Source: a virus
Direction: 5' to 3' (one strand)
Length of the DNA: 64,000 bases
IMG/VR virus record: IMGVR_UViG_3300017991_000002
Coordinates: 124,001 to 188,000 of that record
Shown: positions 3 to 52,223 of the stretch, piece after piece
How the letters are laid out: every line of letters begins with the position of its first letter
Numbering within the stretch: the first letter of the stretch is position 1
Notes under the pieces: model-generated
What the model saw: only the letters and a program-made list of their open reading frames with translations
Database searches by the model: none
Told to the model about the DNA's origin: nothing
Program-made: the position numbers and the translations under genes

Positions 3-251
3 CAGGAGGTGGAGATATTTGCTCACGTTTTCCTTAATGATCGGCCTCTTCTTGGAAGAATAAAAAATGCCATAAAATATATCTTCGGGTATAAGTGCCG
101 GTATGGTCATTGGGACGAATTTATCACAAATGATCCCGAGGAGGTAAAAAGATTACGGGATATGTGCAATAAGTTTCTTGAGCTAAGTGATGAAACACTT
201 CCCAAGGAACTGAACAAAAATAGAAAAATAAGACTTGGAGGAGAAGAATGA
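3..251 (+). CDS. C-terminal part of a small conserved phage protein (cut by window edge)
   Basis: The frame is open to the first base of the window, so the gene probably starts upstream. A GTG at 9 could serve as start but overlaps the AGGAGG at 4-9 and is too close to it. The visible part has a motif around IKYIFGYKCRYGHWDEF that I recall from small uncharacterised proteins of many phages; no function is known. It ends with a basic stretch (NRKIRLGGEE). Its TGA overlaps the ATG of the next gene, indicating an operon. Confidence 0.6.
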   Translation, partial: QEVEIFAHVFLNDRPLLGRIKNAIKYIFGYKCRYGHWDEFITNDPEEVKRLRDMCNKFLELSDETLPKELNKNRKIRLGGEE

Positions 252-4837: not shown

Positions 4838-5116
4838 GTGTTCTTGAAAATAAGCAATAGACTAATCAATACCGAGGGTATATCGGATATATATTTGGAA
4901 GTAGCCCCGGGTATAATGGAGATGATACTGATCGAAGGGGGCAGAATTATGCTCATCAGTAATGATGTTGATAAGGATTCCCTAAAGCTTGATGACTATG
5001 ACGGGGAGGTTTTGTTCCTCAGTCCCGGGGAGTATGAGGGAGTCTCCAACCATTTTAACAGCATAGCTTTGAACCTCTCACCGCACAAGGATGAGGACAA
5101 AAAGGATGGCGAGTAG
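4838..5116 (+). CDS. hypothetical protein, 92 aa, GTG start
   Basis: Not recognised. The GTG at 4838 has an excellent GAAGGAGG site six bases upstream, whereas upstream in-frame codons overlap the preceding gene. The protein is acidic and beta-rich (ISDIYLEVAPGIMEMILIEG), ending in a charged tail. It overlaps the next gene by 11 bases. Confidence 0.6.
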   Translation: MFLKISNRLINTEGISDIYLEVAPGIMEMILIEGGRIMLISNDVDKDSLKLDDYDGEVLFLSPGEYEGVSNHFNSIALNLSPHKDEDKKDGE

Positions 5117-5372
5117 ACGAGAAACTCGTATAACTGGTGATCAGGATGTTGTAGTCGTCTTTAACTGTAAAGACTTTTTCATTAATGACAAATGCATAGA
5201 AGATATAATCCTGGATACTATCAGGAAAAGATTAAAGACGATAGACCTAGAGAGCAATCGTGCCGTGTCCAGTAAACTGATTACATCCATTATCGAGAGC
5301 TTGGAGACCGATTCTGGGAAAAATAAGTCTACAATAAGAAGATTACGTGTAAAGGGAAAATCATGCTCGTAA
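5106..5372 (+). CDS. hypothetical protein, 88 aa
   Basis: Not recognised. The ATG at 5106 is placed eight bases after GAGG; the in-frame ATG at 5091 has poor spacing. The protein looks alpha/beta with a basic C-terminus (TIRRLRVKGKSCS). It overlaps genes on both sides, consistent with one operon. Confidence 0.55.
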   Translation: MASRRETRITGDQDVVVVFNCKDFFINDKCIEDIILDTIRKRLKTIDLESNRAVSSKLITSIIESLETDSGKNKSTIRRLRVKGKSCS

Positions 5373-7525: not shown

Positions 7526-7840
7526 ACATATTCTGGCAGCAGTGCAGTTATGTATTGCAGTTCCGGGGGACCCCAGTCATGTAACCTCTCCCCGGAATCC
7601 CAAGCAGGGGGAACAGGATTGTCCGGTAAAAGTGAGCAGGAGTATGATGCTCAAGATCCTGTATCGAATCCAGATACCGAGCAGCAGACAGTTATACAGG
7701 TAAGACTCGTTGAGAAGGAAATGTCCAAAGGTCCGAGGCAACTTATCGCCTCAAATTCTACCCCTTATCCTCCCCCATTGCCTGTTGGCAGAGGAGGGAG
7801 AACAGTAACCACCAGAAAATTGAATCTGGACAGTGATTAA
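7526..7840 (+). pseudogene. in-frame continuation of the 7088 gene beyond TGA
   Basis: Directly after TGA the same frame runs TYSGSSAV... and stays open to TAA at 7838-7840. It is Ser/Gly/Pro-rich and ends PPPLPVGRGGRTVTTRKLNL. I see no ribosome site before the internal ATG at 7550, so independent translation is unlikely. Either readthrough makes a C-terminally extended minor form, or this is a disabled 3' half. Confidence 0.45.
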
Positions 7841-10179: not shown

Positions 10180-10401
10180 ATGAAGACTTCTACATTATTA
10201 TGTGATAGCGTAAACCCTTACGATCCAGATATCCATTGCGATAGACCTCTCGGTCATGATGGATTTCATAGAAGCGGGTTTGCACGATGGGGAAGTAGAG
10301 GATCGGGGGATAACCATATACCGAGCATATGTGACTACAATCATTATAGAGATTACGATCACTCAGTGTTAGGAGGCATGCATGAGATCAAGAAGAACTG
10401 A
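10180..10401 (+). CDS. small Cys/His zinc-finger-like protein, 73 aa
   Basis: The ATG at 10180 follows AGAAGGG. The pattern C...C-D-R-P-L-G-H-D-G-F-H (about residues 8-30) recurs in small uncharacterised phage proteins and probably binds zinc. The rest is rich in Tyr, His and Asp. It overlaps the next gene by 20 bases. Confidence 0.55.
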   Translation: MKTSTLLCDSVNPYDPDIHCDRPLGHDGFHRSGFARWGSRGSGDNHIPSICDYNHYRDYDHSVLGGMHEIKKN

Positions 10402-10732
10402 TTTGGATCTTTCAACGGTTCAGTTTAAGACGAGTATCAACCTTAGTATCATTAAGGAAACTGAGGAGGCGTGCAGGGGCATTACTACTGACCACGAAAA
10501 GGAGGAAAGGCTGAGCAAGCCTGAGTGCCGTACGTGCCACTACATCAGGAGATCCAGGATAGGCGGAGCTGCAATGACCCAGGCATTATGTTCCTTCTGT
10601 GGAACAGAAATGATGTTTAGTAATACCTGTGTTGATGTCCTTTGTCCAGACTGTGCAAAGAAGCACGAATTGTGTAAACATTGTGGAGGCGACCTGAGGG
10701 ATAGAATGAGAAGGAAGCTGGAAAGAAGGTAA
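10382..10732 (+). CDS. zinc-ribbon protein with three CxxC-type knuckles, 116 aa
   Basis: TTAGGAGG precedes the ATG. The C-terminal half contains CRTC, CSFC, CPDC and CKHC pairs (about residues 50-105), enough for two zinc ribbons. The tail RDRMRRKLERR is basic. The paired ribbons resemble nucleic-acid or protein adaptor domains; no specific family recognised. Confidence 0.6.
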   Translation: MRSRRTDLDLSTVQFKTSINLSIIKETEEACRGITTDHEKEERLSKPECRTCHYIRRSRIGGAAMTQALCSFCGTEMMFSNTCVDVLCPDCAKKHELCKHCGGDLRDRMRRKLERR

Positions 10733-10737
10733 TCATC

Positions 10738-11736
10738 ATGCAAGACCCTGCATTCAATTATGAAATAATGATCAATGATCCTGTACGATTGCTTATACTT
10801 GAAAGTATTAAGAAGATTACCAGTGATCCTGTAGAGGTTAGAAGAAATTCGGCAGTTATTCATTACAGCAGGATACCCGAAATAGTGTCAGTTATCTGCC
10901 CTTTCGGTGAAGATCAATTTCAGATAGCCTCTGCCGCTCATGCTTTTCCAGCCATCTCCACAAGAATGGGTACGATTCCAGTACATTATGACACATATCA
11001 CAACCGGGCTATTCACGATATGAGCTTTGACTCCCTGGCAAAGGAAATTGCCTTTCAGATCGATAAGAGGTGTTTGGATCTTATGGAGGATTCTGCATGT
11101 TTTAGAAGGCACTGTCCTATGGAAATAATCCTTGATAACGATACCAATCGCCGATATTTTCTTGAGGGGTATCTTGAGGACACTTTATTTGAGGTCATCA
11201 GTCGTGTAATACAGCAAAGCAGTTATCCCTCAACATTCATGGTTACTGGAGATGCCATAGCAAGGATGTTGAGACATTCTAACCACTTCATGGATTCCAG
11301 TATAACTGAAGGCCCGCCCTCTAGGTCAGAGGGGTATATTCGACACTTCGGGAATTTAGGGAATTGTACTGTATATTCAAGCCCCTTGAGGACGAATGGA
11401 ACTACTTTGATCGGGTCTTTAAGTCCACATAGTTGTCGCCAAGGAGACAGATCATTTGACTGCGGTTTCGTTTATGCTCCATATCTTCCGTTGTCATCGG
11501 TACCAGTATCCATTCCGGCCAATGCTTGGATGGAAATATCGTCACTACGACCCAGAGGGATAGAAAGTCGATACGGAGCGGTTGTTGTTAACCCAAACTT
11601 CTATGCTACCCTTCACTTCGATGTCCGTAACTCAGAAGAGCTTTTATCTGTACCGTCTACAAAACCACCTTACTATCCTAAACCAACCAAGATAGAGTAT
11701 AAAAGAAAGTTAAAGGTGATAAGAAGCAATGGTTAA
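10738..11736 (+). CDS. diverged gp23-like capsid-fold protein, 332 aa
   Basis: The C-terminal half resembles the C-terminal region of the major capsid protein in this window: FMVTGDAIARML, HFGNLGNCTVYSSPL, LIGSLSP, CGFVYAPYLPLSSVP, and the closing RYGAVVVNPNFYATL. The capsid counterparts are WVVAGVEVCNII, MKIGTLQGKWDCY, LVGYKGV, GYIYAPYIPLYETP and QYGKKVVW. T4-like phages have such a paralogue (gp24) at vertices, so a vertex or minor capsid role is a reasonable guess. The gene lies far from the late block and on the other strand. It ends with EYKRKLKVI, a motif shared with the next two proteins. Confidence 0.6.
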   Translation: MQDPAFNYEIMINDPVRLLILESIKKITSDPVEVRRNSAVIHYSRIPEIVSVICPFGEDQFQIASAAHAFPAISTRMGTIPVHYDTYHNRAIHDMSFDSLAKEIAFQIDKRCLDLMEDSACFRRHCPMEIILDNDTNRRYFLEGYLEDTLFEVISRVIQQSSYPSTFMVTGDAIARMLRHSNHFMDSSITEGPPSRSEGYIRHFGNLGNCTVYSSPLRTNGTTLIGSLSPHSCRQGDRSFDCGFVYAPYLPLSSVPVSIPANAWMEISSLRPRGIESRYGAVVVNPNFYATLHFDVRNSEELLSVPSTKPPYYPKPTKIEYKRKLKVIRSNG

Positions 11737-12187
11737 TGAACATCGTCCCATAAGGATTCTTGTTGAGGAATGGAACGGCTTCTTATCAGTACTGACTCTT
11801 GAGCACTTGAGCACTGATCAATTTGAGGGGAGAGCTGTCGAGATAATAGATGGATCCGAGCTTTGCCATCGGGGAGGGTGTGAGTGGTGCGACAGGCTTA
11901 GGTATCTTTCTGAAGATAGATTTACATTAGTGTGCAGGGGATGCGGAAAGGTTCTTGATCAGGATAATGACGATTATATAGCCTTCAAAGGAAATGTTAC
12001 AAGAGGATGGACAGGTGGTATCATAGGTCCCAACCTTACCCAACAAAACAGACTGAAGAACGTATCTGTATGGTGCATGGACTGTCGCCTTGTTCTCCTG
12101 AACTACCTTGGCGATATGTTCGAATTGAACGCCCCTCCTCTTAAAAAACCATCCTATCAGTTTAAAAGAAAATTGAGGATTGTATGA
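11729..12187 (+). CDS. zinc-ribbon protein with basic C-terminal motif, 152 aa
   Basis: Two or three CxxC-type pairs (CEWC, CRGC, CMDC) suggest zinc ribbons in the middle. The C-terminus APPLKKPSYQFKRKLRIV closely resembles the end of the preceding capsid-like protein. Starts inside that gene (8-base overlap) and ends in an overlap with the Lar-like gene. Function unknown; possibly a partner of the capsid-like protein. Confidence 0.6.
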   Translation: MVNEHRPIRILVEEWNGFLSVLTLEHLSTDQFEGRAVEIIDGSELCHRGGCEWCDRLRYLSEDRFTLVCRGCGKVLDQDNDDYIAFKGNVTRGWTGGIIGPNLTQQNRLKNVSVWCMDCRLVLLNYLGDMFELNAPPLKKPSYQFKRKLRIV

Positions 12188-12495
12188 GTCTCGAAGAACT
12201 AAAGTGTCCTGATCTCTTGCCCTGCCCATTCTGTGGGGGTGAGGCTTTTCTGTTAAAAGGACACGTAATTGTAATTCCAGGAATAAGCTATATGCTGTGG
12301 GGAGTCGGGTGTAATAATGGTACCGAACTTTGCTACTGTCTCCCCGATAAGAACCTCTTAATGTGGGGAACTCAAGAAGAAGCAATAAGCGCATGGAATA
12401 AGAGAAGTATCATAGGCAACGAAAAGTCCGACACTGCCTCCAGAAAGCTAATCCCTGATAAAGACAGGAAGAGAAAGATCAGGATTCCTTCCTAA
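12184..12495 (+). CDS. Lar-like (restriction alleviation) zinc protein, 103 aa
   Basis: LLPCPFCGGEAFL near the N-terminus, then CNN..., and EEAISAWNKR about 65 residues later, is the signature of the Lar family of small phage and prophage proteins. The founding member eases host type I restriction; most members are untested. Here the family's tail is extended by KDRKRKIRIPS, the same type of end as the two upstream proteins. GAGG five bases before the ATG. Its stop overlaps the stop of the convergent late operon. Confidence 0.75.
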   Translation: MSLEELKCPDLLPCPFCGGEAFLLKGHVIVIPGISYMLWGVGCNNGTELCYCLPDKNLLMWGTQEEAISAWNKRSIIGNEKSDTASRKLIPDKDRKRKIRIPS

Positions 12496-29995: not shown

Positions 29996-31173
29996 CTGTA
30001 GTTTTCCGATCCTTCTTCGATAAGTTCACCCTCTACTATATTCCCTGTAACGAGCAAATTTCCGTCTATCATAACATCACCATTGAATTGCATATCTCCC
30101 TCCATTACGATGGTGTTTGCTCCGACTGTAAACCTGTTCCCGTTAACAACAATAGTAGACCCCTCCCCGGTGGCCTCAATCTCGATAATTGGTCTGTTTG
30201 TATCATATCTTGCTTTTATTTTTACTTCGCCTTCTCGTAATCCTTCATAGGCAGTTATTCCGTGACCGGCATTGAGTTCAAAAGTCTGTCTTTCATCCCC
30301 AACATCAAAAACTCTTATCTCTTTCTTTGCACATTCATCATGCTCGAACGAGGGCTGCTTTGACTGCAATCTTACCCTCTCTTCCCCTCGTTTTCCTTTT
30401 ATCCTCAAACCCTGGGAAGTAGCATCCTGGATCCGAACCGTTGTATCAGCATCCTGCATTGTATCATTATAAGTAGCCTGATTACCAGAAAAAGTCGTCC
30501 TCCGTCCTCGCTGCTCGGCATTTCCTTCGCTCTTTTCTCCTAGGACTCTTCCCTTGATAATCATTCCCTGTCCGGCGCGGTCAACAACGGAGAGGCTTTC
30601 CGTCTCTTTCCCCTCATCAATAATCATGGACGCGCCTTTCGGTGTTTTGAAGATAACTCTCCGGCCTGGTTCAGATTCCCTCATCATCTGAGACTCTTTT
30701 GGTGTCTCCGGCCGGTTCTTGCCCCACCACTCTCCCATGGCACTATTACCGTCTAAGGGAACTCCCCTCTCGTTTTCCGCATTTGGCGAGACACCATACT
30801 GCGTTGTATCCTGCCTCGAGTCGTTGTCTGAGGCTTCCTCAGTGGATGGAACCCCTTGATATGTCCCAAGAACAATGGGATGGTCCCGTTGCCCCATATG
30901 GAATATTAGGACGACATCGGTTCCTATAATTGGAGGGTTAAATGAACCACAATCCCATCCGGAAGCCCCACCATATACAACAAATGCCCATGGCAAGGTC
31001 TCGGTCGGTATTCCTTCCTCTTTAGATTCCCCGTGTATTACTGGTATTCTTACTTGGACTCTCCCTATCTGAAGAGGGTCGCAGTCGTTTTCTACCTTCC
31101 CTAAATAATATCCATACAGGATATCTCTCATTGAATAATCACGACGAAATCTTTTTTCGCTTAAGTCTTGCAT
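29992..31173 (-). CDS. gp5/gpV-like baseplate spike protein (OB fold plus beta-helix), 393 aa
   Basis: Residues about 15-120 form the OB domain of gp5/gpV/VgrG (YYLGKVENDCDPLQIGRVQVRIP ... WAFVVYGGAS ... IGTDVVLIFHMGQRDHPIVLG). The C-terminal part is a repetitive beta-helix (TGEGSTIVVNGNRFTVGANT ... GDVMIDGNLLVTGNI). No lysozyme domain is present, unlike T4 gp5. The ATG at 31173 overlaps the preceding stop; an ATG at 31209 has a tighter ribosome site. Confidence 0.85.
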   Translation of the reverse strand: MQDLSEKRFRRDYSMRDILYGYYLGKVENDCDPLQIGRVQVRIPVIHGESKEEGIPTETLPWAFVVYGGASGWDCGSFNPPIIGTDVVLIFHMGQRDHPIVLGTYQGVPSTEEASDNDSRQDTTQYGVSPNAENERGVPLDGNSAMGEWWGKNRPETPKESQMMRESEPGRRVIFKTPKGASMIIDEGKETESLSVVDRAGQGMIIKGRVLGEKSEGNAEQRGRRTTFSGNQATYNDTMQDADTTVRIQDATSQGLRIKGKRGEERVRLQSKQPSFEHDECAKKEIRVFDVGDERQTFELNAGHGITAYEGLREGEVKIKARYDTNRPIIEIEATGEGSTIVVNGNRFTVGANTIVMEGDMQFNGDVMIDGNLLVTGNIVEGELIEEGSENYR

Positions 31174-45646: not shown

Positions 45647-46175
45647 TTACGGTGAAGTAAACACGTTACCGCTGCAGTAGAACTTGTCCCAAACGACTTT
45701 CTTGCCGTACTGAGTCCCCAACGCTTTACGAACGACGAAATCGTCGAGGGTAATGGTCGGAGTTTCATACAGCGGGATATACGGTGCATAAATGTAACCG
45801 GTTTCCAGGAATGAAACACCCTTATACCCGACGAGGAAATCCGTCGCCGTCATATAAGGATCTTTGTAACAATCCCATTTCCCTTGAAGAGTCCCAATCT
45901 TCATGACACCCATACCGCCGGTAGCACCAGACGGAACAAAACCAGGCAGAGTTTCGATGATGTTACAAACCTCAACACCAGCGACAACCCAGTTGCCCGT
46001 TGCACGTCTGGTCTGCTGAAAGATCAGGTTAGAGGCTTCAACAAGGGTATCGAGGAATGCCTGTTTGTGCTCTGTCCAGGAAACACCCGTCGGGAGCTTC
46101 CGGTCAAAAGACACGGTACCTGCAGCAGCGATATTGGTCAAATCGCGGATTATTTCGCGGTCAATTTCAAATTTG
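45647..46175 (-). CDS. major capsid protein, exon C
   Basis: The last base of codon 287 through the stop (175 further residues). It has the gp23-type P domain core (FLVGYKGVSFLETGYIYAPY) and ends WDKFYCSGNVFTSP. The apparent TTG start at 46141 is an artefact of the intron. Confidence 0.75.
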
Positions 46176-48387
46176 CACTTTTGTTACTACCATCATTTGA
46201 TGGCGGGCAGGTCATCTCTGCCTGCCTCTCTACGTCACCGTAGAGGTCTGACTATATCTTCACCCACCGCTTCCTGAAGCGGGGAGGGGGCTGCCGTAGC
46301 CTCTGCAGTTTCCCACAGAGACGTAGTCGATGAACTAGAGAAAAGGAAATCTTCAGTCAAAACCAGAAAGTAAGCACTGTTTTTGGAGCACCAAGCTCGA
46401 GCGGCCTCAAACTTCTCCTCACAATAGCTCAAGAAACTTTCAGGTTTGATCTCAACCAGGAACTTTCGCCCGTCAACGAGAGTTACCAGGTAGTCCGGCA
46501 CATAGTGCTGAAACGATCCATAAGGTATTACTACCTCTTCGTACTGAATATTTGCCACGATCAGGTCGGTATCGATCAATTCCAGGAACTTCAATTCATA
46601 CGAAGACCTGTAATAAAATCTTCCCAATCTGCCGCTAAGGTAACCAGTTTTATACTGATTATTATTTCGCCTGCCCTCTGCAATCATCTTGGCCATACCC
46701 AACGAGACCTTCTTCCGATTTTCAGGATCCTTATACCTCTCCACCTGAGCCTCAGAAATCTTCTTTCTCCATTCCGGGGTTATGACCTTACCAAGAGCAC
46801 CCTGACTCATACTTTCCCTAGCCTCTTCTGAGGTATCAGTTCCAAGACGATTTCTTGTCCGTCTTGCAGCATCAGCACATTTCGGATTGTCTTTATTGGC
46901 CTTGGATATACTATCTCGATGAGACTGACTCAATTTAACTCCTTTATGAGACAGGCTCATTTGCTTTTTAGCATATCTTGAGACTATGGCATGATCTTTC
47001 TTATATACGTCAAGATCGATCTCCGGATGTGCATGCCTCAAATGACTAAGCAAATTATGAGCTTTATACTCTTTGCAGATTTGGCAAGTTATTTTTTCCA
47101 TCTTTTCTCCAGCTGCTGATTGTCTCACAGCTCGTGAGAGGTTCCAGCAATTAAGCAGCTTGTAACGCCCAGCATCTCTGCTGAGGGAGCCCAGTTTCGT
47201 TAAGCTCTTCCGCGAGGACCGCAACCAATTCTGCCTCTGCTTCAATCCCGTGAACATTCCGCAGGTTAGCAGCAGCTTCCATTGACCATCGGCTTCTCAG
47301 CTTACGGGTCCGTGCGATGACGGGCGAGCTGGTAAGCACCAAGTCAACCTCAGGCAGATTCGGGTTTCCTTCCATGTTGTAATCATACGTGGAAGTGACC
47401 AGGGTTGTATTATCAATAGTGTTACTAAAAGTCACACTGACTGAACCAGACGAGTAGTCAATGGTTCCTGTTCCATCACCGGTAAATCCCCCTGCTCCAT
47501 CATCCGTAACGGTCAGATCAGAGGCAGCGGCAGTACTGTAACCGGTGACTGTAATCGTACCAGGACGGATTGGGATAAAAGACAGAGAGCCGGTATAAGG
47601 ACCAGTAGTACCATTGGCCGTAGCAACCGTCTCAGACTCGACCTTCTCTGAGCTGTAGTAATCAGCCGCAGCAGTGTAGCCCTGAGTATCTTCAATTACC
47701 TGGCCTTTGCTGATGGCGCCTTTATTGGTACCATAAACAAACTGCAGATAGAAGACGATACTGGCAGGTCCCAGCATAGGCTGAACACTGACCAGATCAG
47801 TAGCGATCAGGTTCGGGAATATAGCTCGAATCAACGGGACTTAATTCTGCTATATTTGTTATTTACAGGGCTCTTTATCCCTGTGCTCCGATTTCTCGGA
47901 GGATCGGATCATATCATCTTCCTGGGTACTATCTTTCAGGAAGCCAGGCGCTCGTGCCTCTGTTACTGCTTTCGCTCGAGAGGTGATCTCTGAACCTTCT
48001 TCAGCCCTGGAGATATTCATCGTTACGTCTGAAGCTTGGCTGCTGATTGTCTTAGATGTAAATATGTCTGACATATGAAGATTTCCAGCAATTCACCTGG
48101 TTATTCGACAGCCATTACTGACTGAAGGCGCTCCCATTTAATCCATAAGTTTTACAGAGTGGCAACGCGAATTTTTCGAAGTTTGCTATTCCCGGAGAAG
48201 TCGTAGTCGTTGTTTCATACAGAGGATCTTTATTGGCGAAAAATCGATGCTGGCTTTCCAGCAAGAAAGCTGTCACCGTTCGCTTATAATCGTCCTCAAT
48301 AGATTCGCAAAGAGGTGACCATTTTGGGGAATTAGCAAGGCTCTCCCCTTTCTGGGTCATCTCTTCAACTAACATTTGCCGTTCCAT
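45647..48387 (-). CDS. major capsid protein, gp23-like, split by two group I introns
   Basis: The proposed spliced gene is complement(48387..48165, 47839..47203, 46175..45647), 462 codons plus stop. Exon A encodes the N-terminus up to NFEKFA. Exon B encodes PLIRAIFPNLIATDLVSVQP, a Gly/Thr-rich insertion domain, and HGIEAEAELVAVLAEE. Exon C encodes FEIDREIIRDL, the WVVAG core and YIYAPYIPL. Joined, these give the continuous gp23 layout (KFAF-PLIRAIFP; LAEEL-KFEIDREII). No single frame encodes a full capsid, and the apparent downstream starts are not real. AGGAGG precedes the ATG. It forms the prohead shell, probably matured by the upstream protease. Confidence 0.85.
46176..47202 (-). mobile_element. 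group I intron 2 in the capsid gene (about 1027 nt, with endonuclease gene)
   Basis: Td-like core on the minus strand: AATTGCTGGAAC (47152-47141), P5 CTCTCAC/GTGAGA, GACAATCAGCAGC, P7 GACTA/TAGTC (46330-46321 with 46260-46249), P8 CCGCTTC/GAAGCGG (46282-46267), S-like AAGATATAGTC, and a P9 hairpin CTCTACG-GTGA-CGTAGAG (46245-46228). P1 can form between exon end GAGCU and guide GGCUC. Exact ends are less certain than for intron 1: a site one base further downstream at the 5' end, paired with AAG|TGC at the 3' end, also keeps frame. Confidence 0.85.
46235..47101 (-). CDS. intron-encoded homing endonuclease, PD-(D/E)XK type with NUMOD3-like repeats, 288 aa
   Basis: The N-terminal zinc-finger-like CQICKEYKAHNLLSHLRHAH is followed by several NUMOD3-type DNA-binding repeats (SLSHKGVKLSQSHRDSISKA; KISEAQVERYKDPENRKKVS). 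The nuclease core has YRSSYELKFLELID, YVPDYLV and LVEIKPE, matching PD-(D/E)XK homing enzymes and Vsr/TnsA-like nucleases. The ATG at 47101 has GGAG five bases upstream. The C-terminus is encoded over the P7-P8-P9 core, so protein and ribozyme sequences constrain each other. It would cut intronless capsid alleles to spread the intron. Confidence 0.8.
   Translation of the reverse strand: MEKITCQICKEYKAHNLLSHLRHAHPEIDLDVYKKDHAIVSRYAKKQMSLSHKGVKLSQSHRDSISKANKDNPKCADAARRTRNRLGTDTSEEARESMSQGALGKVITPEWRKKISEAQVERYKDPENRKKVSLGMAKMIAEGRRNNNQYKTGYLSGRLGRFYYRSSYELKFLELIDTDLIVANIQYEEVVIPYGSFQHYVPDYLVTLVDGRKFLVEIKPESFLSYCEEKFEAARAWCSKNSAYFLVLTEDFLFSSSSTTSLWETAEATAAPSPLQEAVGEDIVRPLR
47203..47839 (-). CDS. 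major capsid protein, exon B
   Basis: Residues 75-286 and two bases of codon 287. It contains the conserved IATDLVSVQPMLGPASIVFY region, then a roughly 100-residue Gly/Thr/Ser-rich insertion, then LRSRWSMEAAANLRNVHGIE. A TTG inside it mimics a start, but no ribosome site is present. Confidence 0.75.
47840..48164 (-). mobile_element. group I intron 1 in the capsid gene (325 nt, no credible ORF)
   Basis: Core elements are in order on the minus strand: P-like AATTGCTGGAAA (48093-48082), Q-like AATCAGCAGCCAAGC (48048-48034), R-like GGTTCAGAGATCA (47996-47984), S-like AAGATGATATGATCC (47920-47906), with P7 pairing GATCA/TGATC. A P9 hairpin CTCCGA-GAAA-TCGGAG lies at 47901-47886. The guide GGGAGCGC pairs by its GCGC with the exon A end GCGT, and by its GGGA with the exon B start TCCC (P1 and P10). 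The last intron base is G. Confidence 0.85.
48165..48387 (-). CDS. major capsid protein, exon A
   Basis: Residues 1-74 and the first base of codon 75. The frame runs on into the intron to a stop near 48115, giving a false 90-aa ORF. The splice site follows GCGT, whose last U can form the expected U-G pair with the intron guide at GCGC. Confidence 0.75.
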
Positions 48388-48415: not shown

Positions 48416-49192
48416 TTATCTCCAACCGTGTTTCTTGATAACTTTTCTTGCCAGGACCGCTGAAGAATTGTCCTGGACATCCTCCATGAGCCAACTTTCA
48501 TCATCCTCGTTAAAGTCCAAGGAATCCCCATCACCTTCTTGTCCTTCATACAAGTATCGAGATCCGCCTGTCGGCAGGGGCTCCAAGTCCATTCCTCTCC
48601 CGGAAACTACTGGTGATCCCAATGCTTCCCGGTAACCTTCCAACAAGTTAAGTGTCTGCACCATCTCCTCTTGGCTCTGGCACTGCTCCAGGATAGGTTT
48701 CAGAAACTCGGCATGCGGGTGGTCTTCGAGGATCCCCTCAAGATACGATGTGATCTGGGCCTCGTTCCCTTTTTCGAGCACGGATTCTAAGACATCTACA
48801 GATGCATTGTACTTCTCGGTTATGTCTTCGAGAGCTCCTTCCAACTGCTCTGCATACTCTGACAAAGACTCGATCTGCTTTTCTTGTTCTTCCAATCCTT
48901 CTGCCACTTCAGCAGAGCCCTCTTCGACTCTCTCTTCAAGCCTAGTCGTCAGCTCTTCGATGATTGCTTCAGATGCACCCAATTCCTCTTCCAAGGCGTT
49001 ATATGATTCAGCCATTTCACGGAATCGGTTCTTCATTTCATCGATGACGGCGACAGAGGCATTATACTTCCCCTGGATCTCGTTGAGAGTGCTTTTATCT
49101 TCTACGATAGCAGCCATCTGCTCTTGAAGAAGTTCAACATTCTCATTGATTACTTTATTATCCAGAGTACCATTTTCTTTCTCTTTCGGCAT
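48416..49192 (-). CDS. internal in-frame start: scaffold protein alone, 258 aa
   Basis: Within the protease/scaffold frame an ATG at codon 272 is preceded seven bases upstream by a perfect AAGGAGG (49206-49200). The product PKEKENGTLDNKVINENVEL... would be pure coiled-coil scaffold ending in SSAVLARKVIKKHGWR, like Nu3 made inside lambda C. Probably the major scaffold form. Confidence 0.75.
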   Translation of the reverse strand: MPKEKENGTLDNKVINENVELLQEQMAAIVEDKSTLNEIQGKYNASVAVIDEMKNRFREMAESYNALEEELGASEAIIEELTTRLEERVEEGSAEVAEGLEEQEKQIESLSEYAEQLEGALEDITEKYNASVDVLESVLEKGNEAQITSYLEGILEDHPHAEFLKPILEQCQSQEEMVQTLNLLEGYREALGSPVVSGRGMDLEPLPTGGSRYLYEGQEGDGDSLDFNEDDESWLMEDVQDNSSAVLARKVIKKHGWR

Positions 49193-50005
49193 GGTATTTC
49201 CTCCTTCGGATATATTTTTACACTCTTCAGTCCCGTATGGTATCTTGGGTTGAATCAGTTCGTTTGCTTGTGATATCTCCTCTCGCAAAATGGAAACGAC
49301 GTCCTTCGTGCCTTCGGCATCCAGTCCATCGGTGTTCTCTATACTCATAAGGGCACATCTGTGCTCCTCTAATTTCAACGACATCTCAACCAGCTCGGCA
49401 GTTTCCTTTTCTTCCAAATCCTCGAGGTCAAGCCCTTTAAGATAATTGCTTATCTCCTCGAGCTTTGACACTGCCTCTACCGGGGAGAACTCAATACTTT
49501 CTGACAAAACTGCTGGAAAGGCGCCGGCAGTTGAAGGGTTGGCCACGAAGTCCCACGTCTCCAATTTATAATCGTCTTGAACGATCGGTTTGTCCCTCCC
49601 AAGGCTGCCAGTTCCTCGTGAAGAGATACCGACTCGAGTTCCGCCTTTAAACAGTTCTTGGAGTATTTTCCCGTTCGGGGTATCGAGAATTTCTGCCTCC
49701 CCGATTATAGTTCCATCGTCCTGAATATCGACTCCGGTAATTATGTGGGAGACCCTTTGAAGAGATGTTTTACCAGAACTCGGATGGTCCAACTCCCCGA
49801 ACATCCCTCGATTATCAAGCCTATCCCTAACTTTTTGCTCTTTGAGCTTTTTTCCGAACAGACCGTTCGGATAGATCCTACCGTTCTCGTTCTGAACACC
49901 TTCACGTTGGAAGACGCCTTTGACCTTCATCCGCTTCGATCCGTCGCCTTCCTCCAATATCTGGTATTGGAACGGTATCACATCAATAAGTAGTTGCTCT
50001 GTCAT
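48416..50005 (-). CDS. prohead protease (gp21-like) fused to scaffold, 529 aa
   Basis: Residues 1-190 form a gp21/U9-type serine protease: NGRIYPNGLFG, GELDHP with catalytic H74, and GISSRG with the nucleophile at S128 or S129. From about 190 the chain becomes a long acidic coiled coil (LEERVEEGSAEVAEGLEEQE and similar), the composition of a gp22-like scaffold. T4 keeps these as two genes. An internal start at 49192 would make scaffold alone. It lies directly upstream of the capsid gene, as expected. Confidence 0.88.
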   Translation of the reverse strand: MTEQLLIDVIPFQYQILEEGDGSKRMKVKGVFQREGVQNENGRIYPNGLFGKKLKEQKVRDRLDNRGMFGELDHPSSGKTSLQRVSHIITGVDIQDDGTIIGEAEILDTPNGKILQELFKGGTRVGISSRGTGSLGRDKPIVQDDYKLETWDFVANPSTAGAFPAVLSESIEFSPVEAVSKLEEISNYLKGLDLEDLEEKETAELVEMSLKLEEHRCALMSIENTDGLDAEGTKDVVSILREEISQANELIQPKIPYGTEECKNISEGGNTMPKEKENGTLDNKVINENVELLQEQMAAIVEDKSTLNEIQGKYNASVAVIDEMKNRFREMAESYNALEEELGASEAIIEELTTRLEERVEEGSAEVAEGLEEQEKQIESLSEYAEQLEGALEDITEKYNASVDVLESVLEKGNEAQITSYLEGILEDHPHAEFLKPILEQCQSQEEMVQTLNLLEGYREALGSPVVSGRGMDLEPLPTGGSRYLYEGQEGDGDSLDFNEDDESWLMEDVQDNSSAVLARKVIKKHGWR

Positions 50006-50016
50006 CGCGTCTCCTT

Positions 50017-50268
50017 CTACTGGATATCTATCTTTCCTTCCGGGAATCCCGGATACTCAGGATAGAAATGAATCTCATTAAAGTTATACAGTGCATCCCA
50101 GGCCAATTCTGGTATTTTTAATTTATGTATAGCGGTGAATACATCCTTTTTCTCCCACTCCACTTCAAAAAGCCTTCCACTCCGTAGAACGACCGTAATC
50201 GTCTCCATATCAAACGGCTCTCTTTTCAGTGTTATGTATGGCTTTTGTATCGGCTGAAAGCCTGTCAT
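50017..50268 (-). CDS. hypothetical protein, 83 aa
   Basis: Not recognised. Small beta-rich chain (METITVVLRSGRLFEVEWEK) with an aromatic C-terminus. Overlaps the upstream gene by ATGA and lies just before the protease. Confidence 0.5.
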   Translation of the reverse strand: MTGFQPIQKPYITLKREPFDMETITVVLRSGRLFEVEWEKKDVFTAIHKLKIPELAWDALYNFNEIHFYPEYPGFPEGKIDIQ

Positions 50269-51266
50269 AGCTCAAACTTCTCCTTAACTATCCTGAATTC
50301 CTCGTCGGTTTTGATATACCCCTGTTTAAGAAGATTTGACTTCCTCCCCCACACTCTCGGATCCAGCCTTATTAACACTTCCACTATCTCTGGTTCATAA
50401 CCGCGGGGCTTACTTACTGCCATCTTCGAGTACCTATTAAATGCTGGCCTATTCTTATCCTCCAACACTTCGAACGCCTCGACCAAAGAATCGCACTCTT
50501 GTCTGAAGTCGCCAAATGCGACCACATACGTATTATCTTCCTCGGATATATAGGACTCAGTCGTTTTATCCTTCTGAATAAGCTGCAGGCTAGATCCTGA
50601 CGTCCACTCCTTCTCATTAGGATTACTCAGATACCTTACCTCATATCCCATATCTTTGGATCCTATAACTATCCCTTCTTTATTTGTTCCCCTATTCCTG
50701 ACACGATCACCCGGAATAAACTTTCTATTTGGGTCTGGTGACTCTTCATTAAGCATTTTTATGGGGCATAGAAGACCTTTACATAAAGGGACAGTTATCG
50801 CCTTATTGAACTCATCAGTGAATGTGACGAAGCCTCTCCTCGCTGGGATTATGGTATACTTTATACCTTTCTTTGACCCCTCTGGGAGAGTTCCAAGAAA
50901 GACAAATTGATCCCCAGGCCTGAGGTACGACAATGTATAATGGGGAATTGGGTTAGAGGAGCTCTTAGCTACCTCCTCGTATGACGCTGTCTGGACAACC
51001 GGGTTGTCAGAATCTGGATGACCATAAGCAGTCATTGACGCCCCTATAATGGTGGATCCACATTTTGGACAAGTGGAAAACCCTCCTTCAGGATCTTCTC
51101 CCTTCATCTCAAACCCACATTCAGCGTTTGTACACCGAACAACCTTTTCAGCTACTACCTTATCACCATCCCGCTTCTTAACGAACCTCTCTACGGCGGC
51201 GCTGGCCTCTAACTCTCCCTTCGCTACCTTGTCAATCATCGATCGTATTTTGGTCTTATTAGACAT
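50265..51266 (-). CDS. zinc-ribbon protein with SH3-like middle, 333 aa
   Basis: Residues about 40-75 form a zinc ribbon (CTNAECGF ... CPKCGST). The segment FIPGDRVRNRGTNKEGIVIG followed by YEVRYLSNPNEKEW resembles a KOW/SH3 beta barrel as in nucleic-acid adaptors. The C-terminus is helical. No known phage family recognised. Confidence 0.55.
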   Translation of the reverse strand: MSNKTKIRSMIDKVAKGELEASAAVERFVKKRDGDKVVAEKVVRCTNAECGFEMKGEDPEGGFSTCPKCGSTIIGASMTAYGHPDSDNPVVQTASYEEVAKSSSNPIPHYTLSYLRPGDQFVFLGTLPEGSKKGIKYTIIPARRGFVTFTDEFNKAITVPLCKGLLCPIKMLNEESPDPNRKFIPGDRVRNRGTNKEGIVIGSKDMGYEVRYLSNPNEKEWTSGSSLQLIQKDKTTESYISEEDNTYVVAFGDFRQECDSLVEAFEVLEDKNRPAFNRYSKMAVSKPRGYEPEIVEVLIRLDPRVWGRKSNLLKQGYIKTDEEFRIVKEKFEL

Positions 51267-51268
51267 GA

Positions 51269-51613
51269 CTAATTTTCCAAAAGACGAGAAGCAATCTCCT
51301 TCGGAGTAGCCTTACCGTCACGAATCTCCTGTATCGACTCATGCAGTAATTTCTTCAGGTCCTTTTTATCTCCCCCTCCACCTGTAATAGGGGACTTCGG
51401 GGAGGAAATGATACGTCCCTTCTTTCTTTGGGATTTATTCTTGCTCATTCTATACAAAGGACTACTCTCCAAAAAACTCTTTGCCTCTTCTTTTTTACCC
51501 TTCGGTGCCTGTACTGCCCCCAAGGAAGATCCCTCCCCTTTTTTGGCAGTAGACTCACTATAACCTTGTAGAAGGCCGCCGAATTCATTTTCATCTATAT
51601 TATGAACTGTCAT
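51269..51613 (-). CDS. hypothetical basic protein, 114 aa
   Basis: Not recognised. Low-complexity Lys/Ser/Gly-rich middle (KNKSQRKKGRIISSPKSP) and a helical C-terminus (LKKLLHESIQEIRDG). The C-terminal pattern resembles the start of the next gene downstream (SNKTKIRSMIDKVAKGELEA). Overlaps the upstream gene by 4 bases. Confidence 0.5.
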   Translation of the reverse strand: MTVHNIDENEFGGLLQGYSESTAKKGEGSSLGAVQAPKGKKEEAKSFLESSPLYRMSKNKSQRKKGRIISSPKSPITGGGGDKKDLKKLLHESIQEIRDGKATPKEIASRLLEN

Positions 51614-51915
51614 ACTAACCCTCTCCTAAAATGCTTACTTACTGTTGTTAAAGATACAGAACCTGCCCCGGGAGAAGCTTTGTCGGAAATTGTGGACCAT
51701 TTGGATTTACTATCGTCCTCCCCAGGCCTTATTCCATGAATCTTCACATACTCAGCTAACAATTGTGGACTCCCATTCACAATACTGTAAAATATTCCTG
51801 CGATTTTTCCATACGGAGTCCCCTCTTTTTTATCTCGGCCTTTACCGGCCAGTAAATGTGACCGACGCCATGCTTTCCGTAACAACTTACTTCCTTTTGT
51901 GTACGTATTCTCCAT
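51610..51915 (-). CDS. hypothetical basic protein, 101 aa
   Basis: Not recognised. Basic N-terminus (TKGSKLLRKAWRRSHLLAGKG). The ATG at 51915 has no visible ribosome site. A GTG at 51936 is in frame but lies inside the terminator hairpin. The start is therefore uncertain. Confidence 0.45.
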   Translation of the reverse strand: MENTYTKGSKLLRKAWRRSHLLAGKGRDKKEGTPYGKIAGIFYSIVNGSPQLLAEYVKIHGIRPGEDDSKSKWSTISDKASPGAGSVSLTTVSKHFRRGLV

Positions 51916-51920
51916 TGCGG

Positions 51921-51946
51921 AAAAATGGGGGCCCACAAGGGCCCCC
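51921..51946 (-). terminator. strong intrinsic terminator
   Basis: Perfect 8-bp stem GGGGGCCC/GGGCCCCC with a 4-base loop, followed on the minus strand by ATTTTT. It ends the transcript of the 89-aa gene and would lower expression of the genes downstream. Confidence 0.85.
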
Positions 51947-51953
51947 TTCCTTA

Positions 51954-52223
51954 TTACGCTGTTGGACTCTTCAATAATGCCACCAGGGCATTAACTTTCT
52001 CGACCGCTGTGTCCAGAGCAGTTTCCAGCTCACCTTTCAATGTATTGAAGGTAGAAACGTCAGCCGAAGCAACCGTCTCCGGCGTGGGCCATTCATTGGT
52101 CACCAGGTCTGCTTTGAACTCGTTGAGATACTTCATACCATTAACATAAATGTTGGCATAAATGTCCCTGATCCCAACATGATCAACGTCTCGAGGTGCT
52201 TGGTTCGGATTTGTAAAAGGCAT
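51954..52223 (-). CDS. hypothetical protein, 89 aa
   Basis: Not recognised. AAGGAGG precedes the ATG, and a strong terminator follows the stop at once, a sign of an abundant product. The sequence is helical (TFNTLKGELETALDTAVEKVNALVALL) and might be a small virion or decoration protein. Confidence 0.55.
   Translation of the reverse strand: MPFTNPNQAPRDVDHVGIRDIYANIYVNGMKYLNEFKADLVTNEWPTPETVASADVSTFNTLKGELETALDTAVEKVNALVALLKSPTA

Follow-up and report, generated by a model that had tools for sequence, protein, structure and literature searches.

Why does a large, uncultured bacterial virus carry, among its small accessory genes, a second protein that resembles its major capsid protein (MCP)? 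The question is raised by one open reading frame, P0001, in the window studied here, a stretch of 64,000 nucleotides (bases 124001-188000) of a virus record of 205,367 bases, hereafter G000. The initial annotation described the protein as following the C-terminal half of the MCP in motif order and offered three readings: a vertex protein, an interference factor, or a repurposed fold.

Capsid homology of P0001 and the genuine head genes

The P0001 ORF lies where, and on the strand on which, it was initially placed (Table 1). A Shine-Dalgarno-like AGAAGG is found 8 nt upstream of its ATG, and the last 8 nt of the ORF overlap the gene that follows. The protein matches the Pfam family PF07068 (Gp23, T4 major capsid; E = 4.4e-10), residues 98-290 corresponding to positions 176-355 of the model, and its score of 40 bits exceeds the curated family cut-off of 24.4. 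An MCP-family HMM of 468 positions, built from other MCPs, matches residues 87-293 (1.4e-16), and direct BLAST against an exon of the window's own MCP gave 1.8e-5 with 24% identity; PHROGs returned a weak match to major head protein (0.0047). The four motifs first noticed in P0001 (VTGDAI, GNCTVYSSPL, FVYAPYLPL, and RYGAVVV) all align in register with VAGVEV, GKWDCYKDP, YIYAPYIPL, and QYGKKVV of the MCP. Because the Pfam, HMM, and BLAST matches are joined by motifs in register, the capsid likeness is considered real and not a product of chance, and these matches make P0001 a genuine member of the T4 Gp23 major-capsid family. Among annotated phages only distant MCPs were found, and no close relatives were found in IMG/VR or GTDB contigs.

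Structure prediction and fold comparison, proposed initially as the check on this likeness, revealed an HK97-type core and not an unrelated fold, in a model built on an MCP alignment. With a three-sequence alignment of P0001, AF2 reached a pLDDT of 33; with an alignment of 28 rows, most of them MCPs taken from IMG/VR, the pLDDT was 63 and residues 97-232 and 280-300 were confident. The top Foldseek hits of the 28-row model were all HK97-type capsids, including the phage P1 head (2.1e-9), phage S6, T4 gp23, and T4 gp24 (1yue; 6.1e-5). The MCP rows steer the model; therefore, the fold is consistent with the sequence match and not independent of it, and the independent evidence for capsid identity is the sequence match.

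The genuine MCP is encoded in three pieces between 48.39 and 45.65 kb, on the opposite strand and about 34 kb from P0001, in agreement with the roughly 35 kb given at first. The pieces are separated by two insertions, the first a group I intron and the second group I-like, its two ends scoring 29.6 and 24 bits in Rfam, below the cut-off. The second surrounds an ORF that encodes a TnsA-like nuclease domain, and the same ORF is present at the same MCP site in a relative, L013. The prohead protease ORF of L013 (5842-8505, plus strand; 887 aa) contains, by sequence reading only, an intein-like insertion beside GELDHP. Homologues of the tail sheath, at 37-39%, occur in Desulfosarcina chromosomes (L198 and L200), which may hint at the host group or at a related contractile system. 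P0001 itself adjoins zinc-ribbon and Lar-type genes outside the late block, as initially described. The original claim of likeness to the MCP stands as homology to a capsid protein; it is restricted to the C-terminal half, and the MCP gene to which it refers is split by two group I-type introns.

Table 1. Features of the window in window coordinates; "tagged" refers to the shared C-terminal motif described below
Feature	Position	Strand	Evidence or remark
Tagged ORF at window start (NRKIRLGGEE)	9..251	+	longer call begins upstream of window
Tagged ORF (IRRLRVKGKSCS)	5091..5372	+	
Tagged ORF (TRKLNLDSD)	7550..7840	+	
Zinc-ribbon-like gene upstream of P0001, ending RRKLERR	10382..10732	+	possibly a decayed tag
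P0001, capsid-like accessory protein, 332 aa	10738..11736	+	Pfam Gp23; MCP HMM; ribosome-binding site
P0001, N-terminal 86 residues	10738..10995	+	not alignable with MCP N-arm/E-loop; low model confidence
P0001, Gp23-homologous part (residues 87-293), A/P-domain core of HK97 fold	10996..11616	+	HMM alignment; AF2; Foldseek
P0001, C-terminal tag YKRKLKV	11698..11718	+	shared tail motif; disordered in model
Tagged gene downstream of P0001 (QFKRKLRIV)	11729..12187	+	cysteine-rich
Tagged Lar-type restriction-alleviation protein (RKRKIRIPS)	12184..12495	+	Pfam Lar 3e-8; last gene before convergent late gene
Genuine MCP, C-terminal exon	45647..46171	-	Pfam Gp23 5.5e-27 for 45647-46141; frame extended
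Second MCP insertion	46172..47175	-	group I-like
Genuine MCP, middle exon (ORF as called)	47151..47834	-	Pfam Gp23 8.7e-28; exon end near 47180
First MCP insertion	47840..48165	-	group I intron; Rfam 64.2 bits over 47885-48165
Genuine MCP, N-terminal exon (ORF as called)	48115..48387	-	MCP HMM 5.2e-12
Prohead protease-scaffold fusion	48416..50005	-	Peptidase_S77 2e-13; tagged paralogue at G000 49742-50296

Truncation and divergence

Homology of P0001 starts at position 274 of the 468 in the HMM. The region of the N-arm and E-loop, looked for in a functional major capsid protein, is absent, and 86 residues that align with nothing stand in its place. Within the C-terminal half, 39 positions carry the same residue in at least 80% of MCPs; P0001 keeps 18 of them and has changed 21, which is not the pattern of a functional MCP. 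A diverged Gp23-like ORF of an uncultured phage (L130:3251-5122, plus strand), situated directly after gp23 and probably a gp24-type vertex protein, keeps 28/39. Branch lengths in the tree were 3.87 changes per site for P0001, the placement of which is unsure, 0.86 for the L130 paralogue, and 0.09 for the phage's own MCP. P0001 is thus a capsid paralogue that has been truncated and evolves fast, without the parts needed to sit in a capsid lattice.

Its position among known proteins is consequently mixed. P0001 shares with the T4 gp23/PF07068 MCPs the EIAFQID, FVYAPYLPL, RYG, and FYA motifs of the C-terminal half and a predicted A/P-domain fold; it differs from them in the missing N-arm and E-loop, the accessory location, the C-terminal tag, and extreme divergence, visible even against its own MCP. 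Like T4 gp24, it is paralogous to Gp23 and has an HK97-type fold; however, gp24 is full-length, with an N-terminal propeptide, and a gp24-type protein is expected as a full-length gp23 paralogue in the head cluster, whereas P0001 matches over half the length, lies 34 kb off on the opposite strand, and is tagged. In 24 of the 27 other Gp23-bearing virus records a single Gp23 match was found; in the remaining three, the match was split in two pieces (SP-15), accompanied by an extra N-terminal fragment, or accompanied by a weak extra match. It is thus unusual for a phage to encode another Gp23-like protein in an accessory block.

The C-terminal tag of the accessory genes

More unusual than the capsid likeness, and absent from the initial annotation, is the way in which P0001 ends. 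Its last residues are YKRKLKVIRSNG (the tail is also given as ...IEYKRKLKVIRSNG), and a related tail is found on many other proteins of the record. The core of this tag consists of R, K/R, L, R/K/N, and I/V/L/M, followed by 0-12 residues, most often 2, before the stop; it approximates [Y/F]-K-R-K-L-R-[I/V]. When the ORFs of the 205-kb record were called mechanically, 36 of the 307 ORFs carried the strict motif, R[KR]L[RK][ILVM], among their final 17 residues, compared with 0.41 expected from its internal rate (6 in 58,009 residues). Shuffled tails gave a mean of 0.45 strict matches and a maximum of 5 in 1000 trials. When looser forms of the motif and small overlapping ORFs are counted as well, about 69 ORFs are tagged: 40 at 11.5-52.1 kb of G000, 18 at 66-79.1 kb, 5 at 79.1-91.5 kb, and 6 at 123.6-136.5 kb, the last region being the first 12.5 kb of the window. 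The tag is confined to accessory blocks, being found in none of 114 core genes (0/34 in the replication block, 0/80 in the structural blocks).

When enriched C-terminal 5-mers were searched for blindly, the same motif emerged in G000 (about 1e-39), and eight other sets of phage sequences yielded nothing comparable. The tag is essentially absent, with one chance-like match, from the relatives G001, G002, G003, G007, G008, G013, and G024 and the first 50 kb of SP-15; outside G000 it was seen in 2 of 2028 ORFs over 189 loci, some of which overlap. Its DNA pattern gave 46 chance matches across IMG/VR, none in a tagged genome, and no such phage tag was found in the open-access literature. The tag is thus known from one genome.

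Two other origins of the motif were considered. Synonymous codon variation occurs at every tag position, which rules out a DNA repeat, and 18 of the 69 tagged ORFs are without a same-strand start within 30 nt, which together with the variable codons rules out a by-product of ribosome-binding sites. Selection therefore acts on the tag peptide and not on the DNA or the ribosome-binding site. In the 25 residues preceding the tag, K and P are abundant whereas aromatics and C are scarce, and the tail of P0001 is predicted by AF2 to be disordered; thus, the tag is best described as a short linear motif carried by a flexible tail. The alternation of Y-R-L-I with K-K-R within it would suit strand addition. 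As possible sources of the tag, the C-terminus of the phage's scaffold (ARKVIKKHGWR), vaguely alike only, and the MCP-internal TRKLRSRW resemble it too weakly for a claim. Peptides resembling the tag also occur at N-termini (4 matches), among them those of DNA polymerase I (MRKLNLPK; G000 100878-103754) and the terminase (TRRLNIPLP; G000 113690-115795).

The tagged proteins are mostly mutually unrelated, with few small paralogue pairs. When 27 core-gene HMMs were compared with the tagged set, matches came from the MCP and the prohead protease only. The protease paralogue (G000 49742-50296, minus strand) matches head maturation protease in PHROGs (8.6e-11 in the tagged set) and the HMM of the phage's own protease (2.4e-10); its active-site motifs are changed (ELDHP to AFTHG, SSRG to SICG), and its nearest relatives are in the Stenotrophomonas phages CM1/RAS14 (about 31%) and cyanophage gp21. 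Another tagged ORF (G000 29996-30484) is weakly similar to the N-terminal part of the MCP (genome-scale E 1.8e-4; 0.0015; MCP HMM 0.001), which is suggestive only of a second capsid fragment. A second protease-like tagged ORF (G000 51342-52025) was convincing by eye, but with E 0.17 it was rejected. Other recognisable members are a DUF932 protein, an ExoX-like C-terminal domain, a HicB-like protein, several zinc ribbons, and, besides the Lar-type protein of Table 1, a second Lar-type ORF with a weak match (G000 77388-77699). Two small tagged proteins (G000 66096-66257 and 66254-66643, plus strand) have a hydrophobic N-terminal helix and are membrane-like; directly upstream of this tagged cluster lies a gene that reads as a Lon-like protease (G000 63580-66027).

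Possible roles of the tag and of P0001

One C-terminal peptide on about 70 unrelated accessory proteins, those derived from capsid and protease among them, is, with somewhat better than even confidence, the phage's own sorting code, read by one receptor that the phage makes. A C-terminal address used throughout a phage was found neither in the open-access papers searched nor in the related phages examined, and a tail shared across a genome may be a new kind of thing. Many phage genes whose function is unknown can be approached together through it. Were the tag an address, knowing its receptor would show the place, and probably the time, at which the tagged proteins act, and the tag could offer a loading or localisation signal for other work.

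Of the initial three readings, the repurposed fold is the best supported. P0001, a diverged Gp23 paralogue that has lost its N-terminal part, was on this reading taken into the tagged accessory class. The exposed, probably strand-forming tail would dock on one phage partner and so gather many unrelated proteins at one place. The first choice for this place, held tentatively, is the prohead core, and the tag would then be a C-terminal counterpart of the T4 capsid-targeting sequence (CTS). In that case P0001 would act inside the head or in the control of its assembly, and further clients, such as the Lar-type proteins, would be packaged and then ejected to protect the incoming DNA. On such a reading, head proteins are recycled into accessory genes.

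Loading into the prohead is ranked first, with modest confidence, because head-derived and anti-restriction proteins are both among the clients. In T4, diverse anti-restriction internal proteins share only the targeting sequence (PMC3012670), a pattern that the Lar-type clients match, and the CTS, like the tag, is a short terminal peptide common to many unrelated proteins. For SPN3US, diverged paralogues of the prohead protease have been described (PMC5694885), the one of the SPN3US type being inactive; both there and here, a head-assembly paralogue is kept without its original job, although no shared tag was seen described for the SPN3US type, whereas the protein at G000 49742-50296 is one of many tagged ones. 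Several points argue against the prohead. The T4 sequence is N-terminal, cleaved by the prohead protease, and present on few proteins, whereas the tag is C-terminal and present on about 69 ORFs, and no protease-site motif was found enriched upstream of it. Two membrane-like proteins would be odd cargo for a head, some 70 internal proteins would be many, and the tail of the phage's own scaffold is only vaguely like the tag.

Nearly as likely as prohead loading, and possible though still doubtful in its own right, is that the tag anchors accessory proteins at some other site made by the phage, such as a replication factory, a membrane patch, or a DNA-bound phage protein, where the capsid fold of P0001 would have been put to new use as a binding module. 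The membrane-like pair would fit such a site, as would the tag-like N-termini of DNA polymerase I and the terminase and the absence of the tag from late genes; however, the N-terminal look-alikes are few, no compartment gene was identified, and the import route of chimalliviruses is known not to use a simple terminal signal (PMC11087766). Unlikely, by comparison, is a degron, by which a phage or host AAA+ protease would clear accessory proteins late in infection, P0001 being one short-lived early protein among them. The Lon-like gene beside the tagged cluster would suit this, and the ClpX degron of MuA (RRKKAI) is likewise short, basic-hydrophobic, and C-terminal (PMC8138137). However, the tag has the more specific pattern R-K-L-R-I and stands at a variable distance from the stop, unlike degrons read at a free C-terminus; the degron is less likely since the MuA signal sits at the very C-terminus and the tag does not.

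The two readings that would keep P0001 in contact with capsids fare worse than the prohead address. As the interference factor of the initial annotation, it would be a dominant-negative capsid mimic that blocks the assembly of co-infecting phages or satellites; a truncated, diverged capsid core, in the same class as a protease paralogue with changed active-site motifs, could act in this way, but it would need a rival target, P0001 would have to spare its own capsid, and most other tagged proteins are without a capsid link, which makes this improbable. Least probable of all is a vertex or minor subunit of the shell: gp24 is a known gp23 paralogue (PMC3012670) and its structure is among the Foldseek matches, but P0001, lacking the N-arm and E-loop and bearing the accessory tag, is disfavoured in this role by its position in an accessory block, away from gp23, and by a divergence far beyond that of the gp23-adjacent L130 paralogue.
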